Translations under genes and position numbers: made by a program
From: Clostridiales bacterium
GTDB lineage: Bacteria; Bacillota; Clostridia; Peptostreptococcales; Anaerovoracaceae
DNA length: 64,000 nt
Assembly (NCBI GenBank): GCA_015058275.1
Contig: SVCQ01000001.1
Span: forward strand, 109,270 to 173,269
Reading direction: 5' to 3'
Notes under the pieces: generated by a model
The model's input: only the letters and a program-made list of their open reading frames with translations
What the model was told of the DNA's origin: nothing
Databases searched by the model: none
Part shown: positions 24,200 through 63,517 of the stretch, piece after piece
Position numbering within the stretch: position 1 is the stretch's first letter
Layout: each line of letters starts with the position of its first letter

Positions 24200-25225
24200 T
24201 CACGGGCAGGCGGATATTGCGACAAGTTCCAGCGCTGTATCCTTATCTATGTCGCCTCTTTTGATGTCCCTGTCTGTATTGTAAAGATCCGTAAGGATCC
24301 TTTTGATGCGCTTCCTGTGATAACGACCCGCTGCGCTGTAGGCTCTTTTGAAGCGGAATTCGTTGACTCCTGTCCTCCTGGCCATCGCAGAGAGGCTGTA
24401 GCCTCTGTCAGAGAGCTCCAGCGAGTCGTACATGATCTCAAACTGCTTTGTTAATAGAGCCAGCACGGCCATAGCGCCGTCGTCATCACGAATGATGGCC
24501 TCAGCTATTGCAAGAGCCTTGCCGCGGTCGCCTGCCATAAGAGCGTCTACCAGATTGAACACAAAGCGGTCGCTGTCTCCTATGAATATCTCCTCAATAA
24601 GAGAAGCAGATATATCCTCGCCTTCGCAGGCTTTTACCGTCTTGGATATGTCTTTGTCGAGCTGAGACAGATCATAGGCGCTCCCTTTGTTGTAATAGCC
24701 TGTCACGTCGATCATGTGATCGAGCTCGCGCCTTGATATCAGCTTGCCGGCCGAATGGACACGCTTGGTGATGAATGCCTTGAGATCGGCTCTCTCAAGC
24801 CTTGCGAACTCGTAGGCGCCGCAGGCTTTGATCATCTTGCGGCCGTAGGCACTGATATCATCAGAGTATCTGCTCTCGATTCTGAATATGACTATTGATG
24901 AGTCCTGCCTCTGTGAAGCAAACTCAAGGAGCTCATCGGCTCCGGGATCGACTGTCTTCCTGTAAAGCGGCAGGTAGTTCCTGACCACGACTACACGCTT
25001 TGGCGAGAACATCGAATACGCTCTGGCCTCTGCCATTATGTCGTATGCGCCCACCTGATCGCCTTCAAGCACCCTGACATCAAGGTCACGGCTCTCCTCG
25101 TCGACATTGTCCTCTATGAGCCTGGCTACTGCCCAGTCCATAAGGTAATCCTCTGCTCCGTAAAACATCAGGACATCCTTTAATATGCCCTTTTTTCTGT
25201 CATTTACAAAGTCCTTATAGGCCAT
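24200..25225 (-). CDS. holA: DNA polymerase III subunit delta
   Basis: LMFYGAEDYLMDWAVARL..KRVVVVRNYLPL; ends in LTDLYNTDRDIKRGDIDKDTALELV. Confidence 0.9.
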   Translation of the reverse strand: MAYKDFVNDRKKGILKDVLMFYGAEDYLMDWAVARLIEDNVDEESRDLDVRVLEGDQVGAYDIMAEARAYSMFSPKRVVVVRNYLPLYRKTVDPGADELLEFASQRQDSSIVIFRIESRYSDDISAYGRKMIKACGAYEFARLERADLKAFITKRVHSAGKLISRRELDHMIDVTGYYNKGSAYDLSQLDKDISKTVKACEGEDISASLIEEIFIGDSDRFVFNLVDALMAGDRGKALAIAEAIIRDDDGAMAVLALLTKQFEIMYDSLELSDRGYSLSAMARRTGVNEFRFKRAYSAAGRYHRKRIKRILTDLYNTDRDIKRGDIDKDTALELVAISACP

Positions 25226-27557
25226 CAGCTCTCCCCGGTCTGAAGGTATCGACCTTCAGTCTGTCTTTACGTATATCTATACCCACGGCACCGCTAAGGT
25301 CTGTCCTGTAGATGAGTATGCCTCTGGCCTCGAGACGCTCTATCGTCTGCGCGTGAGGATGTCCGTAAAAGTTGCCTGTACCGACCTGTATCACAGCGAT
25401 CTCAGGGGCTGCCGCATCCAGAAAAGCCTCGGATGAACTCGATTTACTGCCGTGGTGCGCGACCTTTAAAATGTCGCATTTAAGTACGTCCGTACCATCG
25501 TAGTATTTTAACATATCAGCTTCATCACTCTCAAGAAGATCGCCTGTTATCATGAGCCTGACACCCTTGTAATTTATGACGTACACATTGTTGTGTTCGT
25601 TTGGATCATCGGCGCTTACAGGTGATGAAGCTTCTCTCACCGGCCATATAGAATCTATGTAAACATCTTCTGTCAGTCTGATGCGGCAAAACGGCTCTAT
25701 GTAGTATGCCTTCTCTATCACCTCGCCCCCGCCACGGTAATCCGAAGGGATACCTATCCTGCCTATAGGGAAGTCCTCTGCCAGCTCAGTGATGCCTTTA
25801 TAATGGTCCATATGAAGGTGTGTGACCAAAGCCATGTCCAGAGCATCGGTTCCGCCGTGTAGGAGGTAAGGCGTCAGTATGCGCTCTCCCACATTGAAAT
25901 CCTGTTTGCCTCCGCCGTCTATCAGCAGGTGATGACCGCCCGCTCTTATGTGAGTGCAGTCGCCCTGACCTACGGATACGAAGACTACTTCATCGTCAGC
26001 AAAGCTGTCATACAGGCAGGCTCCCAGCATCATCACTGGCATCATCAGTAGAGCAGCGCTTCTGGAGATATCCCTGCCTTCCTTCCTTAATATTTTTATC
26101 CTGGTCCATTCTGTTGACAGACCGAATACCGTAATATAAATAGCGAGCGTGAGTGCCGCTCCAAGTCCTGCCACCCTGTACGAAAAGGACCCGTCCATCA
26201 TCAGCAGATTATTGACCTTCATCACCGCGTATGCCAGGAGCTCAGCGATCCATATGCCGGGTCCGGGGAACTGCCCTGTTACAACAGCTATCATCAGCAT
26301 CAGTATGCATACAGGCACCAGCAGCGATGAGATCAGTATCACAGGTATATTTATGAATACAGCAAGCGGGTTTATCCTGTAGAACGTATAGGCAGTCAGC
26401 GGTATGGTTCCGAGTTGCACTGAGATAAGAACGCCCATGGCCTCACCTGTAAATGATGATACCGGTCTTGTCAGAAACGCTATCCCGCTCATCGCAAGAA
26501 ACGAAAGCTCGAAGCCCGTATCTAAAAGCTGATACGGCTGCCATATCAATATGATAAGAGCCGCAAGGCTTACCGATGTGAGCAGATCAAAAGGCCTTTT
26601 GAAATGTATGGCTAGTATGCTTATGCTCATGACTATGCAGGCTCTTATGGTAGCCGGGCTCCACAGTGTCATCTCGCCGTACATGATCATCACTGCTATT
26701 ATCCCGAGAGCTGCTGTTTTTGTCCTCCTGCGGCCCGACAGCATACGAAGGAGTGCATACAGGAATCCCATATGAAGTCCGCTTACAGCAAGGATATGGC
26801 CCGTAGAATTGATATTGAATTCTTCTTTGAGCTCACTGCTTATATCCCTCTTGTCGCCAAACACAACTCCTCTGATAAAGCCTGCGGTCTCATCATCAAA
26901 GCTGTCTATAAAAGCCTCTCTCGTCCTGAAGAGATACCTCCGGAATCTCTCTGCTGGGCTGTTTCCTTCCTGGACGACATCTATCCCGCCGGCTTTGAAC
27001 CAGACTGCAACTCCCCTTGCTCTCAAGTACCTCTTGTAGTCAAAGCATCCGGGATTATCGGCGGATAGTACCTGTCTGTACTCACCCCCGGCCTCGATAA
27101 GCGCTCCGGTAAGCTCGTAAGCCTCGTCATATACTATATCTCCCGTCATATCCGTTGCGGGATGAGTGTCATAGTCATATAAGGCCAGCTGCATCAGACG
27201 CGGACCGCCGTATCTGCGTCCGCATCTTACGATAAGGCTTATCCTCTCGTCGTTCTCCGAGGCCGAGACCACTTTACATCTGATCCTGGCTTCGACCCCC
27301 TCATACTTTGAGGCTTCGTACTCATAAAGCGTATATCTTACGGCAAATGAGAGGAAGCCGCATATCATTACGGCTATCATTATCAGCTTGGCTCTGCGCA
27401 TTCGGTTAATATCCCCGCCTGCAAACAGAACAGCTATGGACAGCGCAATCATAAAGCCGATCGCTTCTGCTGTCCTGAGGCTCTCCAACATAAAAAAGCC
27501 GGCGGCGATACCGGCTGTGTACATTATTGTGAATGATGTCAGCTTCCTTCTGAGCAT
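25215..27557 (-). CDS. comEC: DNA internalization-related competence protein ComEC/Rec2
   Basis: Competence domain SGLHMGFLYALLRML, many TM segments, C-terminal MBL fold VSVGQGDCTHIRAGGHHLLIDGG..VTHLHMDHYKG; preferred start MLRRKL at 27557 behind AGGAGA (ORF track 27578). Confidence 0.94.
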   Translation of the reverse strand: MLRRKLTSFTIMYTAGIAAGFFMLESLRTAEAIGFMIALSIAVLFAGGDINRMRRAKLIMIAVMICGFLSFAVRYTLYEYEASKYEGVEARIRCKVVSASENDERISLIVRCGRRYGGPRLMQLALYDYDTHPATDMTGDIVYDEAYELTGALIEAGGEYRQVLSADNPGCFDYKRYLRARGVAVWFKAGGIDVVQEGNSPAERFRRYLFRTREAFIDSFDDETAGFIRGVVFGDKRDISSELKEEFNINSTGHILAVSGLHMGFLYALLRMLSGRRRTKTAALGIIAVMIMYGEMTLWSPATIRACIVMSISILAIHFKRPFDLLTSVSLAALIILIWQPYQLLDTGFELSFLAMSGIAFLTRPVSSFTGEAMGVLISVQLGTIPLTAYTFYRINPLAVFINIPVILISSLLVPVCILMLMIAVVTGQFPGPGIWIAELLAYAVMKVNNLLMMDGSFSYRVAGLGAALTLAIYITVFGLSTEWTRIKILRKEGRDISRSAALLMMPVMMLGACLYDSFADDEVVFVSVGQGDCTHIRAGGHHLLIDGGGKQDFNVGERILTPYLLHGGTDALDMALVTHLHMDHYKGITELAEDFPIGRIGIPSDYRGGGEVIEKAYYIEPFCRIRLTEDVYIDSIWPVREASSPVSADDPNEHNNVYVINYKGVRLMITGDLLESDEADMLKYYDGTDVLKCDILKVAHHGSKSSSSEAFLDAAAPEIAVIQVGTGNFYGHPHAQTIERLEARGILIYRTDLSGAVGIDIRKDRLKVDTFRPGRADGL

Positions 27558-27602
27558 GGCAGGTATCTCCTGCCACAATTTTACTTATCCGTGGCCTTCG
27601 AT

Positions 27603-27655
27603 ACTGTACAAGTATGGCCATTAAAATTTTGTCGGATCCCGGGCATTTTTTGCAG
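27603..27655 (-). promoter_or_regulatory. Conserved upstream element, copy 1 (46 nt before the comEC start)
   Basis: ACTGTACAAGTATGGCCATTAAAATTTTGTCGGATCCCGGGCATTTTTTGCAG (+ strand) aligns without gaps to 63465-63517, 42/53 identical. Confidence 0.6.
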
Positions 27656-41956: not shown

Positions 41957-42032
41957 TGGTGCCCAGACCCGGAATTGAACCAGGGACACGTAGATTTTCA
42001 GTCTACTGCTCTACCAACTGAGCTATCTGGGC
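41957..42032 (-). tRNA. tRNA-Phe (GAA)
   Basis: GCCCAGATAGCTCAGTTGGTAGAGCAGTAGACTGAAAATCTACGTGTCCCTGGTTCAATTCCGGGTCTGGGCACCA. Confidence 0.95.
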
Positions 42033-42036
42033 TTAT

Positions 42037-42113
42037 TGGTCGGGGTGGCAGGATTTGAACCCGCGGCCCACTGGTCCCAAACCAGTTGCGCTACCAAACT
42101 GCGCTACACCCCG
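42037..42113 (-). tRNA. tRNA-Pro (TGG), copy 2
   Basis: CGGGGTGTAGCGCAGTTTGGTAGCGCAACTGGTTTGGGACCAGTGGGCCGCGGGTTCAAATCCTGCCACCCCGACCA. Confidence 0.95.
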
Positions 42114-42119
42114 ATTAAC

Positions 42120-42195
42120 TGGTGGGCCATCTTGGGTTCGAACCAAGGACCGACCGGTTATGAGCCGGTTGCTCTAACCACTGAGCTAATGGCCC
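42120..42195 (-). tRNA. tRNA with CAT anticodon (Met-type)
   Basis: GGGCCATTAGCTCAGTGGTTAGAGCAACCGGCTCATAACCGGTCGGTCCTTGGTTCGAACCCAAGATGGCCCACCA; elongator Met versus Ile2 not distinguished. Confidence 0.88.
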
Positions 42196-42208
42196 AAGTA
42201 TTAAATTT

Positions 42209-42285
42209 TGGTCGGGGTGGCAGGATTTGAACCCGCGGCCCACTGGTCCCAAACCAGTTGCGCTACCAAACTGCGCTACACCCCG
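42209..42285 (-). tRNA. tRNA-Pro (TGG), copy 1
   Basis: Same 77-nt sequence as 42037-42113. Confidence 0.95.
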
Positions 42286-42289
42286 ATAT

Positions 42290-42365
42290 TGGCAGGGGCA
42301 GTAGGACTTGAACCCACGGCACGCGGTTTTGGAGACCGCTGCTCTACCAACTGAGCTATACCCCT
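42290..42365 (-). tRNA. tRNA-Trp (CCA)
   Basis: AGGGGTATAGCTCAGTTGGTAGAGCAGCGGTCTCCAAAACCGCGTGCCGTGGGTTCAAGTCCTACTGCCCCTGCCA. Confidence 0.95.
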
Positions 42366-42513
42366 ATGTCTTGCTCGTCTATTTGCGCGCCTGCTTCGTT
42401 GCTGCGCTCTCGCTCGTCGTTCGCATACAGGGAGTATTACTCTCTCCGCTCTCGATCGCGCGCCTCGCATTCATCGCAAATATACTTCGCACTACATCTT
42501 GCCTTAAGAAAGG

Positions 42514-42605
42514 TGGCGGAGAAGATGGGATTCGAACCCATGCGGCCCTATACGAACCCTAACGGTTTAGCAAACCGTCCTCTTCAGCCTCTTGAGTACT
42601 TCTCC
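42514..42605 (-). tRNA. tRNA-Ser (GCT)
   Basis: GGAGAAGTACTCAAGAGGCTGAAGAGGACGGTTTGCTAAACCGTTAGGG...CTTCTCCGCCA, long variable arm. Confidence 0.94.
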
Positions 42606-42618
42606 AAGTAAGGCTTCT

Positions 42619-42707
<89 letters not shown>

Positions 42708-42732
42708 GTATCCTTAGCGGGATAAGGTGTGT

Positions 42733-42808
42733 TGGTGACCCATCGGAGATTCGAACTCCGGACACCTTGATTAAAAGTCAAGTGCTCTGCCGACTGAGCT
42801 AATGGGTC
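42733..42808 (-). tRNA. tRNA-Lys (TTT)
   Basis: GACCCATTAGCTCAGTCGGCAGAGCACTTGACTTTTAATCAAGGTGTCCGGAGTTCGAATCTCCGATGGGTCACCA. Confidence 0.95.
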
Positions 42809-42813
42809 GCAAT

Positions 42814-42888
42814 TGGCTGGGGTAGCAGGACTCGAACCTACGAATGACAGAGTCAAAGTCTGTTGCCTTACCGCTTGGCTATACCCCA
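42814..42888 (-). tRNA. tRNA-Gln (TTG)
   Basis: TGGGGTATAGCCAAGCGGTAAGGCAACAGACTTTGACTCTGTCATTCGTAGGTTCGAGTCCTGCTACCCCAGCCA. Confidence 0.95.
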
Positions 42889-42921
42889 AAAGCACTAAAG
42901 CCGGCAAGTCGTAAAAAAAAT

Positions 42922-42998
42922 TGGTGAGCCCACAGGGATTCGAACCCCGGACACACGGCTTAGAAGGCCGTTGCTCTATCCAACTGAGCTATGGACCC
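42922..42998 (-). tRNA. tRNA-Arg (TCT)
   Basis: GGGTCCATAGCTCAGTTGGATAGAGCAACGGCCTTCTAAGCCGTGTGTCCGGGGTTCGAATCCCTGTGGGCTCACCA. Confidence 0.94.
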
Positions 42999-43029
42999 AC
43001 GATTGCCCAACATTGCCTTTACAAAAAAT

Positions 43030-43103
43030 TGGAGCGGATGATGAGAATCGAACTCACGCTATCAGCTTGGAAGGCTGAAGTTCTACCATTGAACTACATC
43101 CGC
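43030..43103 (-). tRNA. tRNA-Gly (TCC)
   Basis: GCGGATGTAGTTCAATGGTAGAACTTCAGCCTTCCAAGCTGATAGCGTGAGTTCGATTCTCATCATCCGCTCCA. Confidence 0.95.
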
Positions 43104-43108
43104 AAAAG

Positions 43109-43183
43109 TGGAGCGGAAGACGAGATTCGAACTCGCGACCCTCGCCTTGGCAAGGCGATGCTCTACCCCTGAGCCACTTCCGC
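43109..43183 (-). tRNA. tRNA-Gly (GCC)
   Basis: GCGGAAGTGGCTCAGGGGTAGAGCATCGCCTTGCCAAGGCGAGGGTCGCGAGTTCGAATCTCGTCTTCCGCTCCA. Confidence 0.95.
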
Positions 43184-43204
43184 ATATCTGAACTTTATAA
43201 ATCT

Positions 43205-43289
43205 TGGTCGAGGGGGATGGATTCGAACCATCGAAAGCAGTGCTAACGGATTTACAGTCCGCCCCCTTTGGCCACTCGGGAACCCCTCG
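43205..43289 (-). tRNA. tRNA-Tyr (GTA)
   Basis: CGAGGGGTTCCCGAGTGGCCAAAGGGGGCGGACTGTAAATCCGTTAGCACTGCTTTCGATGGTTCGAATCCATCCCCCTCGACCA. Confidence 0.95.
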
Positions 43290-43297
43290 ATAAATCT

Positions 43298-43372
43298 TGG
43301 AGCTGATGGAGGGAATCGAACCCCCAACCTGCTGATTACAAATCAGCTGCTCTACCGTTGAGCCACATCAGC
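43298..43372 (-). tRNA. tRNA-Thr (TGT)
   Basis: GCTGATGTGGCTCAACGGTAGAGCAGCTGATTTGTAATCAGCAGGTTGGGGGTTCGATTCCCTCCATCAGCTCCA. Confidence 0.95.
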
Positions 43373-43376
43373 ATAT

Positions 43377-43453
43377 TGGCGACCGGGAACGGGCTCGAAC
43401 CGTCGACCTCCAGCGTGACAGGCTGGCATTCTAACCAGCTGAACTACCCGGCC
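43377..43453 (-). tRNA. tRNA-Asp (GTC)
   Basis: GGCCGGGTAGTTCAGCTGGTTAGAATGCCAGCCTGTCACGCTGGAGGTCGACGGTTCGAGCCCGTTCCCGGTCGCCA. Confidence 0.95.
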
Positions 43454-43472
43454 ATGATATGTAAAGGTGCTA

Positions 43473-43548
43473 TGGTGGGCGCAATAGGGCTCGAACCTAT
43501 GACCCCCTGCTTGTAAGGCAGGTGCTCTCCCAGCTGAGCTATGCGCCC
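43473..43548 (-). tRNA. tRNA-Val (TAC)
   Basis: GGGCGCATAGCTCAGCTGGGAGAGCACCTGCCTTACAAGCAGGGGGTCATAGGTTCGAGCCCTATTGCGCCCACCA. Confidence 0.95.
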
Positions 43549-48481: not shown

Positions 48482-49363
48482 CTATCTGGACAGATAGATT
48501 CTGCCCGCATACGATTCAACAAGTCCCTTTATCTCCATTACAGTGATCAGGGAGTTCACAAGGGACGCACTGAGTCCCGTATCCCATATTATCTCATCAC
48601 AGGTCGCTCCGTTATTGCGGACTACCGACTCGTATATCGCAAGCTCGTCTCCTTCAAGATCGGGAGTTCCTGTATTCATCCTGCCGGAGGCGGCGCCTAT
48701 ATCTCTGAGCAGGTCATCGATTATCACAAGCGGTACTGCGCCGTCTCTTATGAGGAGGTTGCAGCCTATGCTCGACCCGCTGTTGATATTGCCCGGCACG
48801 GCGTATACTGTGCGTCCCTGCTCGGATGCAAACTTAGCCGTTATAAGCGAGCCGCTCTCCATCCCCGCCTCCACGACCACAAGGGCCTCTGATAATCCGC
48901 TGATGATCCTGTTCCTCTGGGGGAATGTCCCTTTGTTGGCATCCTGATACGGAGGATATTCACTCACGACAAGCCCGCCCGCCTTAAGACCTCTGTTCAT
49001 AAGTCCGCGGTTCCTCTCAGGCCCCATCCTTTCTATGCCGCTCCCGAGCACTCCGATGATCTTCCCCTCACCCTCAAGCGCACCCTCGTGAGAGAAGGCA
49101 TCGATGCCAAGAGCCAGCCCTGAGATCACAGGCACGCCCGCCTCGGCAAGCCTCCTGCCCGTCATGAGCGCAACGTTTTTGCCGTACAGGGTATATCTCC
49201 TTGATCCCACTACCCCGACAGACGGTTCAAGCAGGAGAGAGATGTCCCCCGTACAGTAAAGCTGCTTCGGAGGATTATGTATATTCCTCAGCTTGTCCGG
49301 GTATTCGGCAGATGCTATGTCTATCTTTTCTGTCCTGTACATGGTCTTCCTCTCAGATGTCAT
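48482..49363 (-). CDS. dprA: DNA-processing protein DprA
   Basis: VGVVGSRRYTLYGKNVA, VISGLALGIDAFSHEGAL, FPQRNRIISGLSEALVVVEAG, AVPGNINSGSSIGCNLLI; start could be 49342 or 49363. Confidence 0.94.
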   Translation of the reverse strand: MTSERKTMYRTEKIDIASAEYPDKLRNIHNPPKQLYCTGDISLLLEPSVGVVGSRRYTLYGKNVALMTGRRLAEAGVPVISGLALGIDAFSHEGALEGEGKIIGVLGSGIERMGPERNRGLMNRGLKAGGLVVSEYPPYQDANKGTFPQRNRIISGLSEALVVVEAGMESGSLITAKFASEQGRTVYAVPGNINSGSSIGCNLLIRDGAVPLVIIDDLLRDIGAASGRMNTGTPDLEGDELAIYESVVRNNGATCDEIIWDTGLSASLVNSLITVMEIKGLVESYAGRIYLSR

Positions 49364-50858
49364 ATTCAAATCTGTAGCCGAGAGCCTCGGCAAGATGTTC
49401 TGTATTAATGGATGCTCTCGCATCAAGATCCGCTATGGTGCGTGCCACTTTGAGTGTCCTGGCGTAGGCTCTGGGTGACATGTTGAACTTATCATAGGCT
49501 GAATTCATGAATCCGGTCTCTTTGCTGCCGAGTCTGCAGTGTATCTCCGTATCGCGGGCTGTGAGCTCCGAATTATAGCCGGACCTTCCCTGTGATGCCG
49601 CGAACGCCCCTGCCGCTTCGACCTGAGTTCTCATCGTCAAAGTATCAAGTCCGCTTCTGGCTCCGGTCAGCTCCCCGTAAGTGACCTTCTCCATGGAGAT
49701 GCACATGTCGATACGGTCCATGATAGGTCCGCTCAGGCGTCTTTTGTACCTCTCTATATCCGCCTGGGAGCAGCTGCACTCCCTGTCTCTGTCTCCCAGG
49801 AATCCGCAGGGACACGGATTGGCCGCCATCATAAGCTGAAAGTTACACGGGAACCTGTAAGTCTCGCCCTTTCTTGTATGTGAGATCGCCTTGTCCTCGA
49901 GAGGCTGTCTGAGGCCCTCTATAGTCCTCCTGTCAAATTCGCAGACTTCGTCAAGGAAGAGCACTCCGTTGTGAGCCATGGTTATCTCTCCTGGGACAGG
50001 ATGCAGACCACCGCCTATGAGCCCCGCCCGGCCGATGGAATGATGAGGCGCTCTGAAAGGTCTTACACGGCAGAGTTCCGTCTCCTCTCCGCTGTGTCCG
50101 TCCACAGACCTTATGATGGCAGTCTCGAGCATCTCCCTTTCGCTCATCCCCGGCATTATCCCCGGCATGCGTCGTGCGAGCATGGTCTTGCCGCAGCCCG
50201 GGCTTCCCTTCAGGAGAATCCCGTGTCTTCCGGCAGCAGCCACGACAAGTGCCCTCTTGGCATTCTCCTGCCCGGCTATGTCCGCAAAGTCTGCAGTTTC
50301 CGGTGCTTTCTTTGTTCCTTCTATACCGGGGTCAAGCATAGCTTCCTTTGGCCTTCGCTTCAGTATGTCCACGCATTCTGCAAGACTCGATGCCGTATGG
50401 ATATTGCCTCCTGCTATTACCGCTTCGCTCCGGTTGGCTTCAGGGACCACTATCCCTTCAAGACCCGTGTCCACCATGTGGAGCATCATCGGAAGAGCTC
50501 CGTCCACGCCGAGGACTCTCCCGTCCAGAGAGAGCTCTCCTATCATGCCCCACCCCCTGCACATATGTCCGCTGAAATACCCGCTGCAGCAAAGTATCCC
50601 TACAGCCATCGGCAAATCCAGGCAGCTTCCGTTCTTGCGCAGGCTTGCAGGTGTCAGATTGACCGTTATCCTGCCGCGCGGGAAGTCAAAGCCTGAATTG
50701 ATGACTGCGCTTTTGATCCTCTCTCTTGCTTCCATTACCATGGTCGACGGCAGACCGACTATATTGATGCCCGGCAGGCCTCTTGCGATATCCGTCTCAA
50801 CATATACGCTCATGCCTTCGATGCCGAAGCATACGGATGAATTGATCCTGCTGTACAT
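49353..50858 (-). CDS. comM: YifB family Mg-chelatase-like AAA ATPase (ComM)
   Basis: LLKGSPGCGKTMLARRMPGIMP, FRAPHHSIGRAGLIGGG, GVLFLDEVCEFDRRTIEGLRQPLED, NPCPCGFLGD. Confidence 0.95.
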   Translation of the reverse strand: MYSRINSSVCFGIEGMSVYVETDIARGLPGINIVGLPSTMVMEARERIKSAVINSGFDFPRGRITVNLTPASLRKNGSCLDLPMAVGILCCSGYFSGHMCRGWGMIGELSLDGRVLGVDGALPMMLHMVDTGLEGIVVPEANRSEAVIAGGNIHTASSLAECVDILKRRPKEAMLDPGIEGTKKAPETADFADIAGQENAKRALVVAAAGRHGILLKGSPGCGKTMLARRMPGIMPGMSEREMLETAIIRSVDGHSGEETELCRVRPFRAPHHSIGRAGLIGGGLHPVPGEITMAHNGVLFLDEVCEFDRRTIEGLRQPLEDKAISHTRKGETYRFPCNFQLMMAANPCPCGFLGDRDRECSCSQADIERYKRRLSGPIMDRIDMCISMEKVTYGELTGARSGLDTLTMRTQVEAAGAFAASQGRSGYNSELTARDTEIHCRLGSKETGFMNSAYDKFNMSPRAYARTLKVARTIADLDARASINTEHLAEALGYRFEYDI

Positions 50859-50869
50859 CAGATCACCTC

Positions 50870-51202
50870 CTACATGCAGTCCTCGATAAGATCAGTCATG
50901 ATCTCATAGACATCGAAGGATATGCTCTTCCACTGGAGCCTCCGGTTGGACAGATATGACTTTGCGGCCTTTCGTATCCTGTCCTGCTTGATCTTTGTGA
51001 CCGAATCTGAAGGATAGCCGTACTGAGAGCCCGTCCTCGTCTTTACCTCAATGAAATGCATGACCCCGTCCTTGAGAGCGATAATGTCTATCTCTCCCTG
51101 CTTTGTCGCAAAATTCCTCGCTATTATCCTGAATCCCGAATTCTCCAGAAGCTTGGCTGCGAAATCCTCTCCTATGTCTCCTACGTTCTTCCTGTATCTC
51201 AT
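50870..51202 (-). CDS. YraN family protein (UPF0102)
   Basis: GEDFAAKLLENSGFRIIARNFATKQGEIDIIALKDGVMHFIEVKTRTG. Confidence 0.94.
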   Translation of the reverse strand: MRYRKNVGDIGEDFAAKLLENSGFRIIARNFATKQGEIDIIALKDGVMHFIEVKTRTGSQYGYPSDSVTKIKQDRIRKAAKSYLSNRRLQWKSISFDVYEIMTDLIEDCM

Positions 51203-51248: not shown

Positions 51249-51288
51249 GGGCGCTTTTTTGTCGAACAACCAGGGCACTTATTCCAAC
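51249..51288 (-). promoter_or_regulatory. Weaker, possibly related upstream element ahead of yraN-comM-dprA
   Basis: Minus strand TTGGAATAAGTGCCCTGGTTGTTCGACAAAAAAGCGCCC resembles CTGCAAAAAATGCCCGGGATCCGACAAAATTTTAATGG (comEC) if a short gap is allowed. Confidence 0.3.
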
Positions 51289-51314
51289 AAAAAAAGCCCT
51301 TTTTCAGGGCTTAT
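51286..51314 (-). terminator. Terminator after the HAD hydrolase gene
   Basis: Minus strand AAGCCCTGAAAAAGGGCTTTTTTTG. Confidence 0.8.
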
Positions 51315-58924: not shown

Positions 58925-59264
58925 CGCTTCTCACCAGAAAATCTTCGTTTATCATGTATGCCTTTATCTCTATCCGCTTATGTACATCCATCGTCAGAAG
59001 TCCGCCTCTCAAAAGGCTCACTTTATCCTCATCTTTGTAGGTGCGTATCAGTACTCCCCGGTATGCATCCTGCTCCTGCATTACCTCCCTGTGTCTGGCG
59101 ATGCCTGATGTCAGTATCTCTATGTAGAAGACAAAGAGCCTCACAAGGAGCATTGCGGCCAGTATGACAAGAGGCAGCGATATTGCAGCCTCGACCATCT
59201 GCGAGCCTCGCTTATTGCCCGGCAGGATGCGGAGTCTTCTTATGTGCCTAGAAATTGGCAGCAT
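58908..59264 (-). CDS. TadE-like pseudopilin
   Basis: GNKRGSQMVEAAISLPLVILAAMLLVRLFVFYIEILTSGIARHREVMQ. Confidence 0.8.
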   Translation of the reverse strand: MLPISRHIRRLRILPGNKRGSQMVEAAISLPLVILAAMLLVRLFVFYIEILTSGIARHREVMQEQDAYRGVLIRTYKDEDKVSLLRGGLLTMDVHKRIEIKAYMINEDFLVRSGEILD

Positions 59265-59421
59265 CGAGATTGCCGAATATGCGGTTCACGAAATCAACGA
59301 TGGATGATTTGAATATGATCCCGACCGCTACTGCGATGGCCACTAGTATTGCTACCTGGACCATCTCCATTCCCTTCTTGTTCATGAGGGAATTCATCAA
59401 GAATAGTTTGATCTTCTTCAT
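59248..59421 (-). CDS. Flp-type (type IVb) pilin, 57 aa
   Basis: Below the ORF-track cutoff; reads MKKIKLFLMNSLMNKKGMEMVQVAILVAIAVAVGIIFKSSIVDFVNRIFGNLDAANF*. Confidence 0.85.
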   Translation of the reverse strand: MKKIKLFLMNSLMNKKGMEMVQVAILVAIAVAVGIIFKSSIVDFVNRIFGNLDAANF

Positions 59422-59472: not shown

Positions 59473-60489
59473 CTACATGCCCAGAAGCGCCGGTGCCATC
59501 GTTATTACTATCAGCAGTATCAGCAGAAGCCCCAGCGGATATGCCATCTTTGTGTCTATCATCTTGCCGCTCTCCCTGGCCACGATCTTCCTCTCGTCCC
59601 AGAGATATCTGCTCTCGCGCGCGAGGCTTTCTATGACATCGCTTCCCCTTCGCTCGTTCTCCGTGAGTATGCTTGCTATCCTGATCATCTCCTTGACGTC
59701 GTTGCGAAGTGCGTAATCCTTTATCACCTCCGCCGTGCTTATCCTGTGCCCGTCGGTAGCATCGCGCATGCTGGCAAGATCCCTTTCGAAGCTGCTGAGA
59801 TCATCCTCTTCGTATGAAACATAACTACCCGTTATGGTATCGAAGGCATCGCTTAGTATGAGCCCTGCGTTCATCATGAGGAAGAGCTGATTGCAGAACC
59901 TCGGCAGGCCTTTCAGTATGGACCTTCTCCTTTCCTCTGCCGATTTATCTCCGCGGCCTGATGAAGCTATCATCATCAGTATCAGCGCAGCGTATATGAC
60001 CGGTATGAGTATGAGAAGAGAATTGTCGCTCCTATCAGCTCCGAGCCACCTGATGGCTGTCCCGTCAGGAAGTGTGTGCGGCAGAGAGATTTTCCTTTCT
60101 TTTGAATACTCGATCTCGCTTATGATGCTGTCTATGCCGGCCTCTATCGAAGCCTGCCTGTCATCCTTGCTGCTTATCCTGATCCCCGTCCTGCCGTCAG
60201 ACTGAGGCTGCAGAGTCAGAGTGACCTCGCGTTTTGTGATCTCATCTCCGTCTCTAATCTCAAGATCAAGATCATATCGCTCGGTCTTCTGAAGGCTCCG
60301 CCTGCTGATGCCCACTATGGCTCCCGAGCCGTCTGCTATCAGCTTGCCGCTCTCCTCCGGCCCCCTTACCGCAAGAGCAAGTATGAGAAGCGCCGTGACC
60401 AGAGTGACCGCATATATACCCGACATCAGCCTGGTATCATTCCTCAGTGCTGCCGTCTTATTCCTTAATGTGACCATCAGATCATCCAT
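59473..60489 (-). CDS. TadC-like type II/IV secretion F-family membrane protein
   Basis: GLPRFCNQLFLMMNAGLILSDAFDTI, ARESRYLWDERKIVARESGKMIDTKMAYPLGLLLILLIVITMAPALL; start corrected from 60552. Confidence 0.85.
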   Translation of the reverse strand: MDDLMVTLRNKTAALRNDTRLMSGIYAVTLVTALLILALAVRGPEESGKLIADGSGAIVGISRRSLQKTERYDLDLEIRDGDEITKREVTLTLQPQSDGRTGIRISSKDDRQASIEAGIDSIISEIEYSKERKISLPHTLPDGTAIRWLGADRSDNSLLILIPVIYAALILMMIASSGRGDKSAEERRRSILKGLPRFCNQLFLMMNAGLILSDAFDTITGSYVSYEEDDLSSFERDLASMRDATDGHRISTAEVIKDYALRNDVKEMIRIASILTENERRGSDVIESLARESRYLWDERKIVARESGKMIDTKMAYPLGLLLILLIVITMAPALLGM

Positions 60490-60491
60490 GT

Positions 60492-61235
60492 CTATATCTC
60501 CACACTCACTATTTTTTGTATCATCGCGTATATCCCTATGATCGATGCGCATACAGAGGTCATGATCACCCTGCCTGCCACTGTCTCGTACAGCGGCGCT
60601 ATGTAGTCGGGCGCAGTCAGATTGAGGAAGAGTATTATAAGTACCGGCATCACGAATATGACCATGCCTTCGCTCTCCTTACGCCTGATGAGTTCCTCTA
60701 TCTCCCTGTCTATGCTCATCTTCTCCATGATCACGGAGGCGGCCTTGTTGAGAGCTGTTATCAGGCTCGCACCCGTCATCTTGCATATTGAATAGACCGT
60801 GACGAAGTCATGCACATCCTCAAGGCCGCTCAGCTCCGCCATGTCCCTCAGCACCGTTACATCGTTCTCTCCGCCCGTCTCCATGCGCTCATATGCCTTT
60901 TCGAGATCGCCCGCGAGTATCGAGCGCCGGCCGTGGATATTTCGCATGGACGGTATGGATTCTGCAATCGCATCCTTCATGGATCTACCCGCTCCTATGG
61001 CAGTGGAAGCCATGAAGAGGAAATCCTTGAACTCAGCCAGATACCTCTTGCGTCTGCGGCTTATAATGCTGTCTGTAACAAAACCCTTTATCTTCTTTGA
61101 GAACGGAAGTATCACAACAGCAAAGAATATATTCCTGTACAGAAGGTACGATACAGCCAGTCCAGCAAGCACAAGTCCCGCGTGATACAGTATCTCTTCC
61201 TTCCTGCTGAGCTTATATACTCTCAGATCAGTCAT
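60492..61235 (-). CDS. TadB-like type II/IV secretion F-family membrane protein
   Basis: RKRYLAEFKDFLFMASTAIGAGRSMKDAIAES, VTVYSICKMTGASLITALNKAASVIMEKMSIDREIEELIRRKESEG. Confidence 0.87.
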   Translation of the reverse strand: MTDLRVYKLSRKEEILYHAGLVLAGLAVSYLLYRNIFFAVVILPFSKKIKGFVTDSIISRRRKRYLAEFKDFLFMASTAIGAGRSMKDAIAESIPSMRNIHGRRSILAGDLEKAYERMETGGENDVTVLRDMAELSGLEDVHDFVTVYSICKMTGASLITALNKAASVIMEKMSIDREIEELIRRKESEGMVIFVMPVLIILFLNLTAPDYIAPLYETVAGRVIMTSVCASIIGIYAMIQKIVSVEI

Positions 61236-62503
61236 GACGCTCTCCCTTCTCCGGATCCCGTGCTCCCCTGCATCATCTCTCCGTAGCCGAATCTTGTAAG
61301 TCTCTCCCTGTCAAGGAGTCCGTTGCCGGTCGGCATGAGGCTTCCCTCCCTGTCAACCTTGTACAGATAGTTGAGAATGTAGTCAGCACCGTCGAAACCC
61401 GCGATCTCGGCTACCTCTTCAACATGTCTTCGTCCCTTTGCATCTCTTTTAAGATGTACGAATATATCTATCGCATTTGCGATCTGGTTCCTGACAGATC
61501 CGACGGACACCTGCGAGTCCGACAGGTACATGGTCTCAAGGCGGTTTAACATGCCGCGTATCGAGTTGCCGTGCCCCGTGCTCATGCTGCCGTCATGGCC
61601 TGTATTCATCGCCTGTATCATGTCTATGACCTCGCGGCCTCTTACCTCTCCGACGATTATCCGGTCAGGCCTCATCCTGAGGCTCGTCCTTATGAGCTGG
61701 GTCATATTGACCTCTCCCTTGCCGATAGAATTGGCCGCCCTGCATTCCATCTGCACCTTGTTGTCTATATGGCTTATGACAAGCTCGGCCGAGTCCTCTA
61801 TCGTGATGACCCTCTCGCTCCTGCCTATGAAGGCGGTAAGAGCGTTAAGAAAGGTCGTCTTGCCGGATGAAGTCCCTCCGCTTATGAAGATGTTGTATCC
61901 GCTTCTCACAAGCACGGCGAGATCGACCGCGCAGTCGCTTGAGAGGCTTGCGCATCCCACGAGCTCCGCCATGTCTATCTCTGTCTCGCGGAACTTACGT
62001 ATGGTAAGGATCGGGCCGTTGAGAGCCACGGTCCTGAGTACCCCGTTTACCCTGTATCCGGAAGGGAGCCTTGCGTCCACTATCGGATTCGCCTCGTTTA
62101 TCTCCCTGTGGACATCGGATGCGAACATCCTGATGATCTCCTCAAGCTCCGCATATGATGTAAAGGCATCATCCACCCTGACAAGCCTTCTCTCCCTCTC
62201 CACGTATATCCTCTCAGGACCGTTCACCATGATCTCGTTGATATGAGGATCAGAGAGAAGCTCTTCGAGTATCCCGTAGCGGTTTATGAGCCTCACGTGC
62301 ATGCTGCCGAGGATGATCTCATTCTCCCTTGATGATGTCCTGTATGAGAGCTCCGATCCGAAGAACTCATCCTCGCATCTTGCAAGTATCTCATCGGCGG
62401 AGGGAGCCTCGCTCCTGTCTGTCATCCACTTCCTGATGCTCCTGATGAGATCTTCTATCTCAGTTCCGTATTTGCTTACTGTCGCTGCTCTTGTTATTGT
62501 CAT
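61232..62503 (-). CDS. TadA/CpaF family secretion ATPase
   Basis: EIMVNGPERIYVERERRLVRV, NIFISGGTSSGKTTFLNALTAFI, RMRPDRIIVGEVRGREVIDMIQAMNTGHDGSMSTGHGNS. Confidence 0.95.
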   Translation of the reverse strand: MTITRAATVSKYGTEIEDLIRSIRKWMTDRSEAPSADEILARCEDEFFGSELSYRTSSRENEIILGSMHVRLINRYGILEELLSDPHINEIMVNGPERIYVERERRLVRVDDAFTSYAELEEIIRMFASDVHREINEANPIVDARLPSGYRVNGVLRTVALNGPILTIRKFRETEIDMAELVGCASLSSDCAVDLAVLVRSGYNIFISGGTSSGKTTFLNALTAFIGRSERVITIEDSAELVISHIDNKVQMECRAANSIGKGEVNMTQLIRTSLRMRPDRIIVGEVRGREVIDMIQAMNTGHDGSMSTGHGNSIRGMLNRLETMYLSDSQVSVGSVRNQIANAIDIFVHLKRDAKGRRHVEEVAEIAGFDGADYILNYLYKVDREGSLMPTGNGLLDRERLTRFGYGEMMQGSTGSGEGRAS

Positions 62504-63419
62504 AGCCGTCCATTCCGTATATCTGCCTTATGCAGTCATCTATGGCAAGTGCCTCATCGCTGTCTCCGGTATGCCTGATGCTGATAACATCCCTGCCGGA
62601 CTCCCTTCCTATCATTTCGGAGAACCCAGGGATCCTCCTGCCGCTTTCAAAGCAGACTATGCTGCCTGCTTCCTTGATGACAGACAGGTTCTCATGTCTC
62701 AGGCATGTACCTGCATCCATTACCACAGCATCAAAACCGCCTGAAATCCCCGCTATCAAATCTCTCAGCTCATCCTCCTCAAGATATGCTGCAGGGTTCA
62801 GTCCCGGAGGAAGCATCAGAGAAGACACCCCGTAGCTGTCTGTATATGTGAAGCTGTCCCATGCGCTGCCGCGTCCCGTCCTGACAGCATACATGAGTCT
62901 TGCGAATCTGTTGATGCGCCCGCTCTCAGGCCTGCCGTAATCGTTTATAAAGCCGAGACTCAGCAGGAGGACTCTTCCGCCGCGCCTGTATATGATCTGT
63001 CTGGCAAGAGCCCTGCACTTGTCCGATACAAACGAATCCGAATCGCTCAGCACAGCTATTGTCTTTGAAGAGCATGTCCGCCTGACTCCCCCGCCGTGCC
63101 ACTCGCTGTATGCATTGACGAATTCCGACAGCAGGCTCTCAACGCCAGAGTATTTGAACACTCTCCTGTATGTATCGTTGTCAGGTGATGTATCCGCCTC
63201 ATCAGCTGAGCGTGACAGAAACACAGTCCGTACGGCTATACGCGAGAGTATCTGTTCGTCGAACTCCTCAGGTCCTATGTCTGTCAGTATCAGGCAGTCT
63301 GATGTGTCGCCTCCTGTCTCGCCTATAACATTTACGAATATATCATTATCGTAAGATGCAAGTTTATCGACCAGTGCCTTCCTGTATTCTGTATCCCTTA
63401 TCAGAATTCCAAGTCTCAT
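62460..63419 (-). CDS. TadZ/CpaE-like protein
   Basis: MRLGILIRDTEYRKALVDKLASYDNDIFVNVIGE receiver-like N-terminus, degenerate MinD-like C-terminal half; first gene of the Tad locus; start corrected from 63440 to the ATG behind AGGAGGG. Confidence 0.72.
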   Translation of the reverse strand: MRLGILIRDTEYRKALVDKLASYDNDIFVNVIGETGGDTSDCLILTDIGPEEFDEQILSRIAVRTVFLSRSADEADTSPDNDTYRRVFKYSGVESLLSEFVNAYSEWHGGGVRRTCSSKTIAVLSDSDSFVSDKCRALARQIIYRRGGRVLLLSLGFINDYGRPESGRINRFARLMYAVRTGRGSAWDSFTYTDSYGVSSLMLPPGLNPAAYLEEDELRDLIAGISGGFDAVVMDAGTCLRHENLSVIKEAGSIVCFESGRRIPGFSEMIGRESGRDVISIRHTGDSDEALAIDDCIRQIYGMDGYDNNKSSDSKQIRN

Positions 63420-63464
63420 TTCGCCCTCCTGTACGCTCAACTATACTGATCCGCGCAGCAAAAA

Positions 63465-63517
63465 ACTGTACACATATTGCCATCAGAATATTGTCGGATT
63501 GCGGTGATTTATTGCAG
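63465..63517 (-). promoter_or_regulatory. Conserved upstream element, copy 2 (46 nt before the tadZ-like start)
   Basis: ACTGTACACATATTGCCATCAGAATATTGTCGGATTGCGGTGATTTATTGCAG (+ strand), 42/53 identical to 27603-27655. Confidence 0.6.

Follow-up and report, generated by a model that had tools for sequence, protein, structure and literature searches.

A promoter element of tandem 21-bp repeats shared by comEC, a Tad pilus locus, recA and dprA points to a competence regulon in a clostridial genus

Why should comEC, which encodes a DNA-uptake channel, and a Tad pilus locus be preceded by nearly the same intergenic sequence? This question is raised by a 64,000-nt stretch of a Clostridiales bacterium (contig SVCQ01000001.1, hereafter the window), which forms the terminal part of contig C12 in the 1.82-Mb metagenome-assembled genome (MAG) G000. 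The initial annotation reported that positions 27603-27655, upstream of comEC, and 63465-63517, upstream of the tadZ-like first gene of the tad locus, align without gaps at 42 of 53 positions, and our comparison returned the same count, with both copies read on the minus strand. This is the coding strand of the two genes, and both copies face them. The runner-up 53-mer in the window reaches only 28/53 identities, and a 23-bp degenerate core, allowing up to three mismatches, matches just these two sites both in the window (shuffles expect none) and in the whole genome. In our reading, which sequence comparison makes probable, a genus-specific competence regulon (DNA uptake plus recombination) has this element as its promoter-operator, and a putative activator would control it through sigma-A.

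The match is real, but its 53-bp limits were drawn too short, as the conserved unit extends through a -10 hexamer. Each element spans about 78 bp and consists of tandem 21-bp direct repeats, a TGTACA(G) box, 21 nt and the -10, which reads TAAAAT at comEC and TATAGT at tad. The spacing of exactly 46 nt to the start codon, to which the initial annotation attached weight, does hold for this pair, the first base of TGTACA lying 53 nt from the ATG at both sites; in nearly all orthologs, however, the distance to the ATG ranges from 50 to 58 nt. The 46 nt therefore follows from the layout of the promoter, and what is truly fixed is the 21-nt interval from TGTACA to the -10. Likewise, no convincing TTGACA/TATAAT pair had been seen, and a TTGACA -35 is indeed absent at comEC and tad, yet both have a -10 of the sigma-70 type. 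Judged on predicted starts, both promoters show the pattern of a sigma-A promoter with an activator, i.e., a -10 without a -35 and an operator adjacent to it.

Across the genus, nearly all readable comEC and tadZ orthologs have the element in front of them, which supports a shared promoter or regulator site. Our comparison set comprised 47 genomes of the genus; among the named relatives that the tadZ-like protein brought up, most are MAGs from rumen and gut, with the labels uncultured Clostridiales and Mogibacterium sp. tadZ-like orthologs occur in 40/47 genomes and comEC in 43/47, and upstream regions were read for 30 tadZ and 29 comEC genes. A TGT[AG]C box stands 39-78 nt before the start, mostly at 51-58, in all 30 tadZ and in 27 of the comEC regions. 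Forty-four promoters (23 tad and 21 comEC) align without gaps over 79 nt, with the box as their best conserved part; the aligned order is repeats, then TGTACAG/TGTACTG/TGTACAAC, about 21 nt, and TATAGT/TATATT (tad) or TAGAAT (comEC). A profile built from this alignment, divergent promoters being excluded (R1), was run over 251 genomes of 93 genera of the family, and at E ≤ 1e-3 no genus besides our own was found. A comEC start of the sister genus (G078) retains TGTACT-21 nt-TATAAT, the sole such remnant among 18 comEC starts read.

Moreover, the tad and comEC promoters appear to have changed together. In 20 genomes having both, a permutation test on the box extension gave a higher tad-comEC similarity within genomes than between them (0.714 vs 0.606, p 3e-4), and the repeats behaved alike (0.533 vs 0.486, p 0.002); no such within-genome excess was found for the spacer (p 0.28) or the -10 (p 0.89). 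Lineages with GTACAAC or GTACTGAA/GTACTAC boxes carry some form of these at both genes. This likeness would be expected if one trans-acting DNA-binding factor reads both promoters. The high identity of two intergenic regions in one genome could also stem from a promoter cassette that is mobile or was recently duplicated and carries no common regulation, which we regard as extremely improbable: within one genome, the tad and comEC spacers agree at about chance level (0.28), in contrast to the conserved box and repeats, which argues against recent duplication, and the same orthologous positions are retained across a divergent genus.

The repeat itself roughly follows CGACA-N6-GCAC-N3-ATC, and its conserved part spans most of the 21 bp. 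Lag 21 ranked top in the autocorrelation of four upstream sets, with z values of 9.4 (tad), 4.4 (comEC), 13.5 (recA) and 12.0 (obg-comEA); the shuffles behind these values ignore relatedness, a bias that the other lags carry equally and for which they act as a control. Dyad scores of the unit stayed below or at the margin of the 95% null, with inconsistent centres. Several known elements were considered and rejected. ArgR boxes are 18-bp palindromes in tandem, and although argR lies in the window, the repeat unit has no significant dyad symmetry. A DNA uptake sequence (DUS/USS) would occur in hundreds of dispersed copies, whereas R1 gives only five matches at E ≤ 10 in G000. The streptococcal sigma-X com-box was set aside as a sigma-A-like -10 is present instead, and the LexA/SOS box GAACN4GTTC as it is absent at comEC and tad and forms a separate site at recA.

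The autocorrelation, unit profile and dyad test agree with a direct, bipartite and non-palindromic repeat, the form that an AraC/XylS-type operator would have. Many AraC/XylS-type operators are direct repeats, and promoters such as those of ExsA have 21-22-bp spacers. The bipartite non-palindromic repeat, the unusual 21-nt distance from box to -10 and the occurrence in either orientation recall such sites, and by this analogy an AraC/XylS-type factor would explain all three features. Direct-repeat binding is mostly a property of the AraC family (PMC9723621). No candidate AraC-type gene is linked to the element.

Further scans point to a regulon wider than two genes, which lends support to the earlier proposal that Tad is co-regulated with competence. 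Besides its two full-strength sites at comEC and tad, R1 recovers in G000 three weaker matches, each to the repeat half only: one between obg and comEA, one between cinA and recA, and one in a gap next to a surface-protein gene. Upstream of recA, which was read in 30 genomes, a related array in reverse orientation is followed by GTTCGACA and TATAAT, and farther 3' comes a second promoter, which contains an SOS box. R1 alone misses the dprA operon, for which a second profile (R2), built from 27 recA promoters only, was needed. Run over the window without filters, R2 ranks the element upstream of yraN-comM-dprA first (Table 1) and the comEC element, on the opposite strand, second (E 0.007), with nothing else below 0.3. 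At the recA and dprA sites measured, GTTCGACA gives a -35-like TCGACA 17-18 nt before TATAAT/TACGAT. In 20 tad-adjoining stretches (364 kb), ten R2 matches fall below 1e-3; each precedes a yraN-comM-dprA operon, and together they cover 10 of the 12 genomes in which this operon was found. The two profiles also detect each other's sites: all ten R2 matches (E ≤ 1) on tad and comEC loci lie in upstream regions on the opposite strand, as do all six R1 matches on recA loci.

The initial annotation had asked whether matches would gather at competence genes or scatter at random and within coding sequence. Coding sequence holds no scatter of strong matches, and 21-bp-repeat sites concentrate at recA, dprA/comM and obg-comEA besides comEC and tad. 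Several partial R1 matches inside coding sequence (e.g., L274, L276, L299, L303 and L312) were put down to chance, and most hits of the first pattern scan (L004-L016, ferredoxin-domain CCGGCAAAAATTTGATGG) lie in coding sequence and are coincidental.

From these sequence patterns we propose comEC, tad, recA, dprA/comM and, probably, comEA as members of the regulon. A putative DNA-binding activator would bind the tandem repeats, whose period equals two helical turns, and recruit sigma-A RNA polymerase. At comEC and tad, which have no -35, the repeats would place it next to the TGTACA(G) box into which they run, 21 nt 5' of the -10; at recA and yraN-comM-dprA, a like array in the opposite orientation would act from upstream of the -35-like box. 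The predicted outcome is coordinated expression of ComEC, probably ComEA, the Tad pilus, RecA, DprA and ComM. Several observations weigh against this reading. No regulator was found for the element, the only helix-turn-helix regulators among the window proteins scanned being ArgR and the winged helix of DprA. The yraN-comM-dprA operons of G034 and G035 have no clear site. The repeats in the obg-comEA gap lack the TGTACA box and precede an apparent obg terminator, which makes control of comEA less certain. G000 has PilB/PilT genes without a site, its pilB region giving no R1 match, and some sites stand at genes outside classical competence (toxin-antitoxin, nuclease and surface-protein genes).

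This last group of targets is what a silencer would predict. In that case the repeats would be sites of a nucleoid protein or Rok-like repressor holding competence, surface and horizontally acquired genes off, and the toxin-antitoxin (DUF4160/DUF2442, BrnT, MNT), PDDEXK_2, CdiA_C-like and surface-protein genes among the targets, together with an array that overlaps or adjoins the promoter, would be accounted for. We consider this unlikely, as the fixed 21-nt spacing to the -10 and the absent -35 at comEC and tad fit activation better, sites per genome are very few, and the housekeeping recombination genes recA and dprA/comM carry them as well. An alternative sigma factor had been raised in the initial annotation alongside a dedicated regulator; a dedicated sigma factor would read TGTACAG-N20-TATAGT. 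The lack of TTGACA at comEC and tad and the superior conservation of the box agree with such a factor; the -10, however, resembles that of sigma-A and is not the same at comEC (TAGAAT) and at tad (TATAGT), the repeats extend far upstream of any sigma footprint, and the recA and dprA sites have a different -35-like box. An alternative sigma factor is therefore very unlikely, and with TATAGT/TATATT or TAGAAT as the rule, an activator working on the housekeeping polymerase is the likelier of the two.

As to the kind of activator, a LytTR-family protein of the ComE/HdrR type, as in streptococcal competence, would bind direct repeats. LytTR operators are direct repeats mostly 12 bp apart with about 21 bp per period (PMC6193735), a period that is found here, also just 5' of the promoter, and in S. 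mutans competence and bacteriocins are targets of HdrR and BrsR. In contrast to those operators, whose conserved unit is about 9 bp, the unit here is conserved over most of 21 bp and is used in both orientations. Furthermore, the LytTR domain is absent from G008 (97% complete), G022 and G039, all of which retain array and box at comEC; in G022, full sites at toxin-antitoxin genes are retained too. LytTR is disfavoured by these three site-bearing genomes, and we rate it quite unlikely. The same three genomes are also without the tadZ-like gene.

The proposed system is of a known kind, the cis-element being new and the pilus partner unusual. As in the competence regulons of other Bacillota (ComK in Bacillus, ComE/sigma-X in streptococci), one cis-element unites comEC, recA, dprA and, probably, comEA; unlike in those, it is made of 21-bp repeats with TGTACAG/TTCGACA, no com-box was seen, and the co-regulated filament would be Tad and not the ComG pilus. 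No description of competence control in Clostridia was found in the literature searched. In the actinobacterium Micrococcus luteus, which has no other type IV pilus genes, tad deletions abolish transformation (PMC4322843), and Tad-dependent DNA uptake is also reported for Liberibacter (PMC8513845). Our genus resembles M. luteus in combining comEA/comEC with Tad as a candidate uptake pilus, and differs in the cis-element common to tad and comEC, from which a functional link may be deduced. Given the M. luteus precedent, Tad is a plausible though unproven uptake pilus here.

The distribution of pilus ATPases bears on the same point. PilB-type ATPases (full-length strong T2SSE matches) occur in only four genomes (G000, G019, G032 and G041), and in G009, G017, G033, G035, G037 and G042 no PF00437/T2SSE-family ATPase besides TadA exceeds the cut-off. 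Tad may therefore be the DNA-uptake pilus of several tad-bearing genomes that are without PilB/ComGA, whereas in G000, with its PilB/PilT, it is not the only candidate filament. In G008:C6, G034:C18, G040:C32 and G043:C14, from genomes that have no strong PilB match, a second T2SSE-family ATPase of PilT size is kept some 13 kb from comEC and could serve pilus retraction. We tentatively entertain, as a possibility slightly short of even, that a competence regulator of an undescribed type directs natural transformation through the 21-bp repeats, that Tad replaces the ComG pilus as DNA-uptake filament, and that toxin-antitoxin and nuclease modules were recruited into the regulon. With a conserved cis-element linking tad to comEC as well as to recA and dprA, whether Tad is a transformation pilus of Bacillota becomes a direct genetic question, and the 21-bp array offers a bait for the regulator.

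Table 1. Features of the two loci and of the dprA operon in the window (positions 5' to 3' along the forward strand).
Feature	Position	Strand	Basis
comEC promoter element (repeat array + TGTACA box + -10)	27577..27654	-	R1 43.3 bits; orthologous across genus
comEC TGTACA box, 21 nt 5' of -10	27605..27610	-	sequence; TGT.C invariant in 44 promoters
comEC -10 hexamer TAAAAT	27578..27583	-	sequence; TAGAAT/TAAAAT in comEC orthologs
tad promoter element (repeat array + TGTACA box + -10)	63439..63516	-	R1 53.7 bits
tad TGTACA box, 21 nt 5' of -10	63467..63472	-	sequence
tad -10 hexamer TATAGT	63440..63445	-	sequence; TATAGT/TATATT in tad orthologs
recA-type element upstream of yraN-comM-dprA (array + GTTCGACA)	51259..51310	-	top window R2 match, 36.2 bits, E 2.6e-10
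yraN-comM-dprA operon	48482..51202	-	YraN; PF01078/PF13541; PF02481; TIGR00732
comEC	25215..27557	-	PF03772 + PF00753; TIGR00361 just below cut-off
Hairpin GGCAGG-AGATA-CCTGCC, abuts comEC start codon, spans Shine-Dalgarno	27558..27574	-	sequence
tadZ-like, first tad-locus gene	62460..63419	-	synteny with tadA; orthologs in 40/47 genomes
tadA ATPase	61232..62503	-	PF00437; best NCBIfam match TadA family
tadB/tadC-like platform genes	59473..61235	-	PF00482 (T2SSF) in second open reading frame (ORF); first ORF by synteny only
Flp-pilin-like ORF, 57 aa, G/MEMV processing-like motif	59248..59421	-	sequence

Sites at other genes were met in individual genomes. Full sites precede toxin-antitoxin genes (DUF4160/DUF2442, BrnT, MNT nucleotidyltransferase) and PDDEXK_2-type genes (L117, L118, L120-L124 and L129), and full-strength sites precede genes of large secreted proteins with long acidic stretches in G037 (L115), G016 (L116) and G036 (L119); no Pfam family was found in the 204 residues scanned of the L116 protein. 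Partial arrays stand before a CdiA_C-like ORF and a RelE-like gene, and a partial, recA-type array in the argR-ruvC gap points at ruvC in L281 (G037) and L306 (G015). In about eight genomes, a partial array lies just 5' of the start of a recurring family of about 280 aa (L282, L284, L290, L293, L308, L131, L128 and L305), which is possibly PD-(D/E)XK-like at the C-terminus and a candidate for a competence-linked nuclease.

At comEC, the outer G-C pair of the 6-bp start-codon hairpin is changed to C-G in G040 and G043 and to T-A in G020 (orthologs L048-L077). Since the hairpin covers the Shine-Dalgarno sequence and its outer pair changes in relatives, comEC translation may also be controlled through this structure. 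The tad locus encodes a DUF5702 protein in addition to the genes of Table 1, and its tadZ-like product has no Pfam or NCBIfam match. A group II intron end (RF00029, 63782-63847) adjoins the locus at the contig end, and many tad loci of the genus are likewise found at contig ends, some of them beside a tRNA end. A cluster of 16 tRNA genes occupies 41957-43548 on the minus strand.
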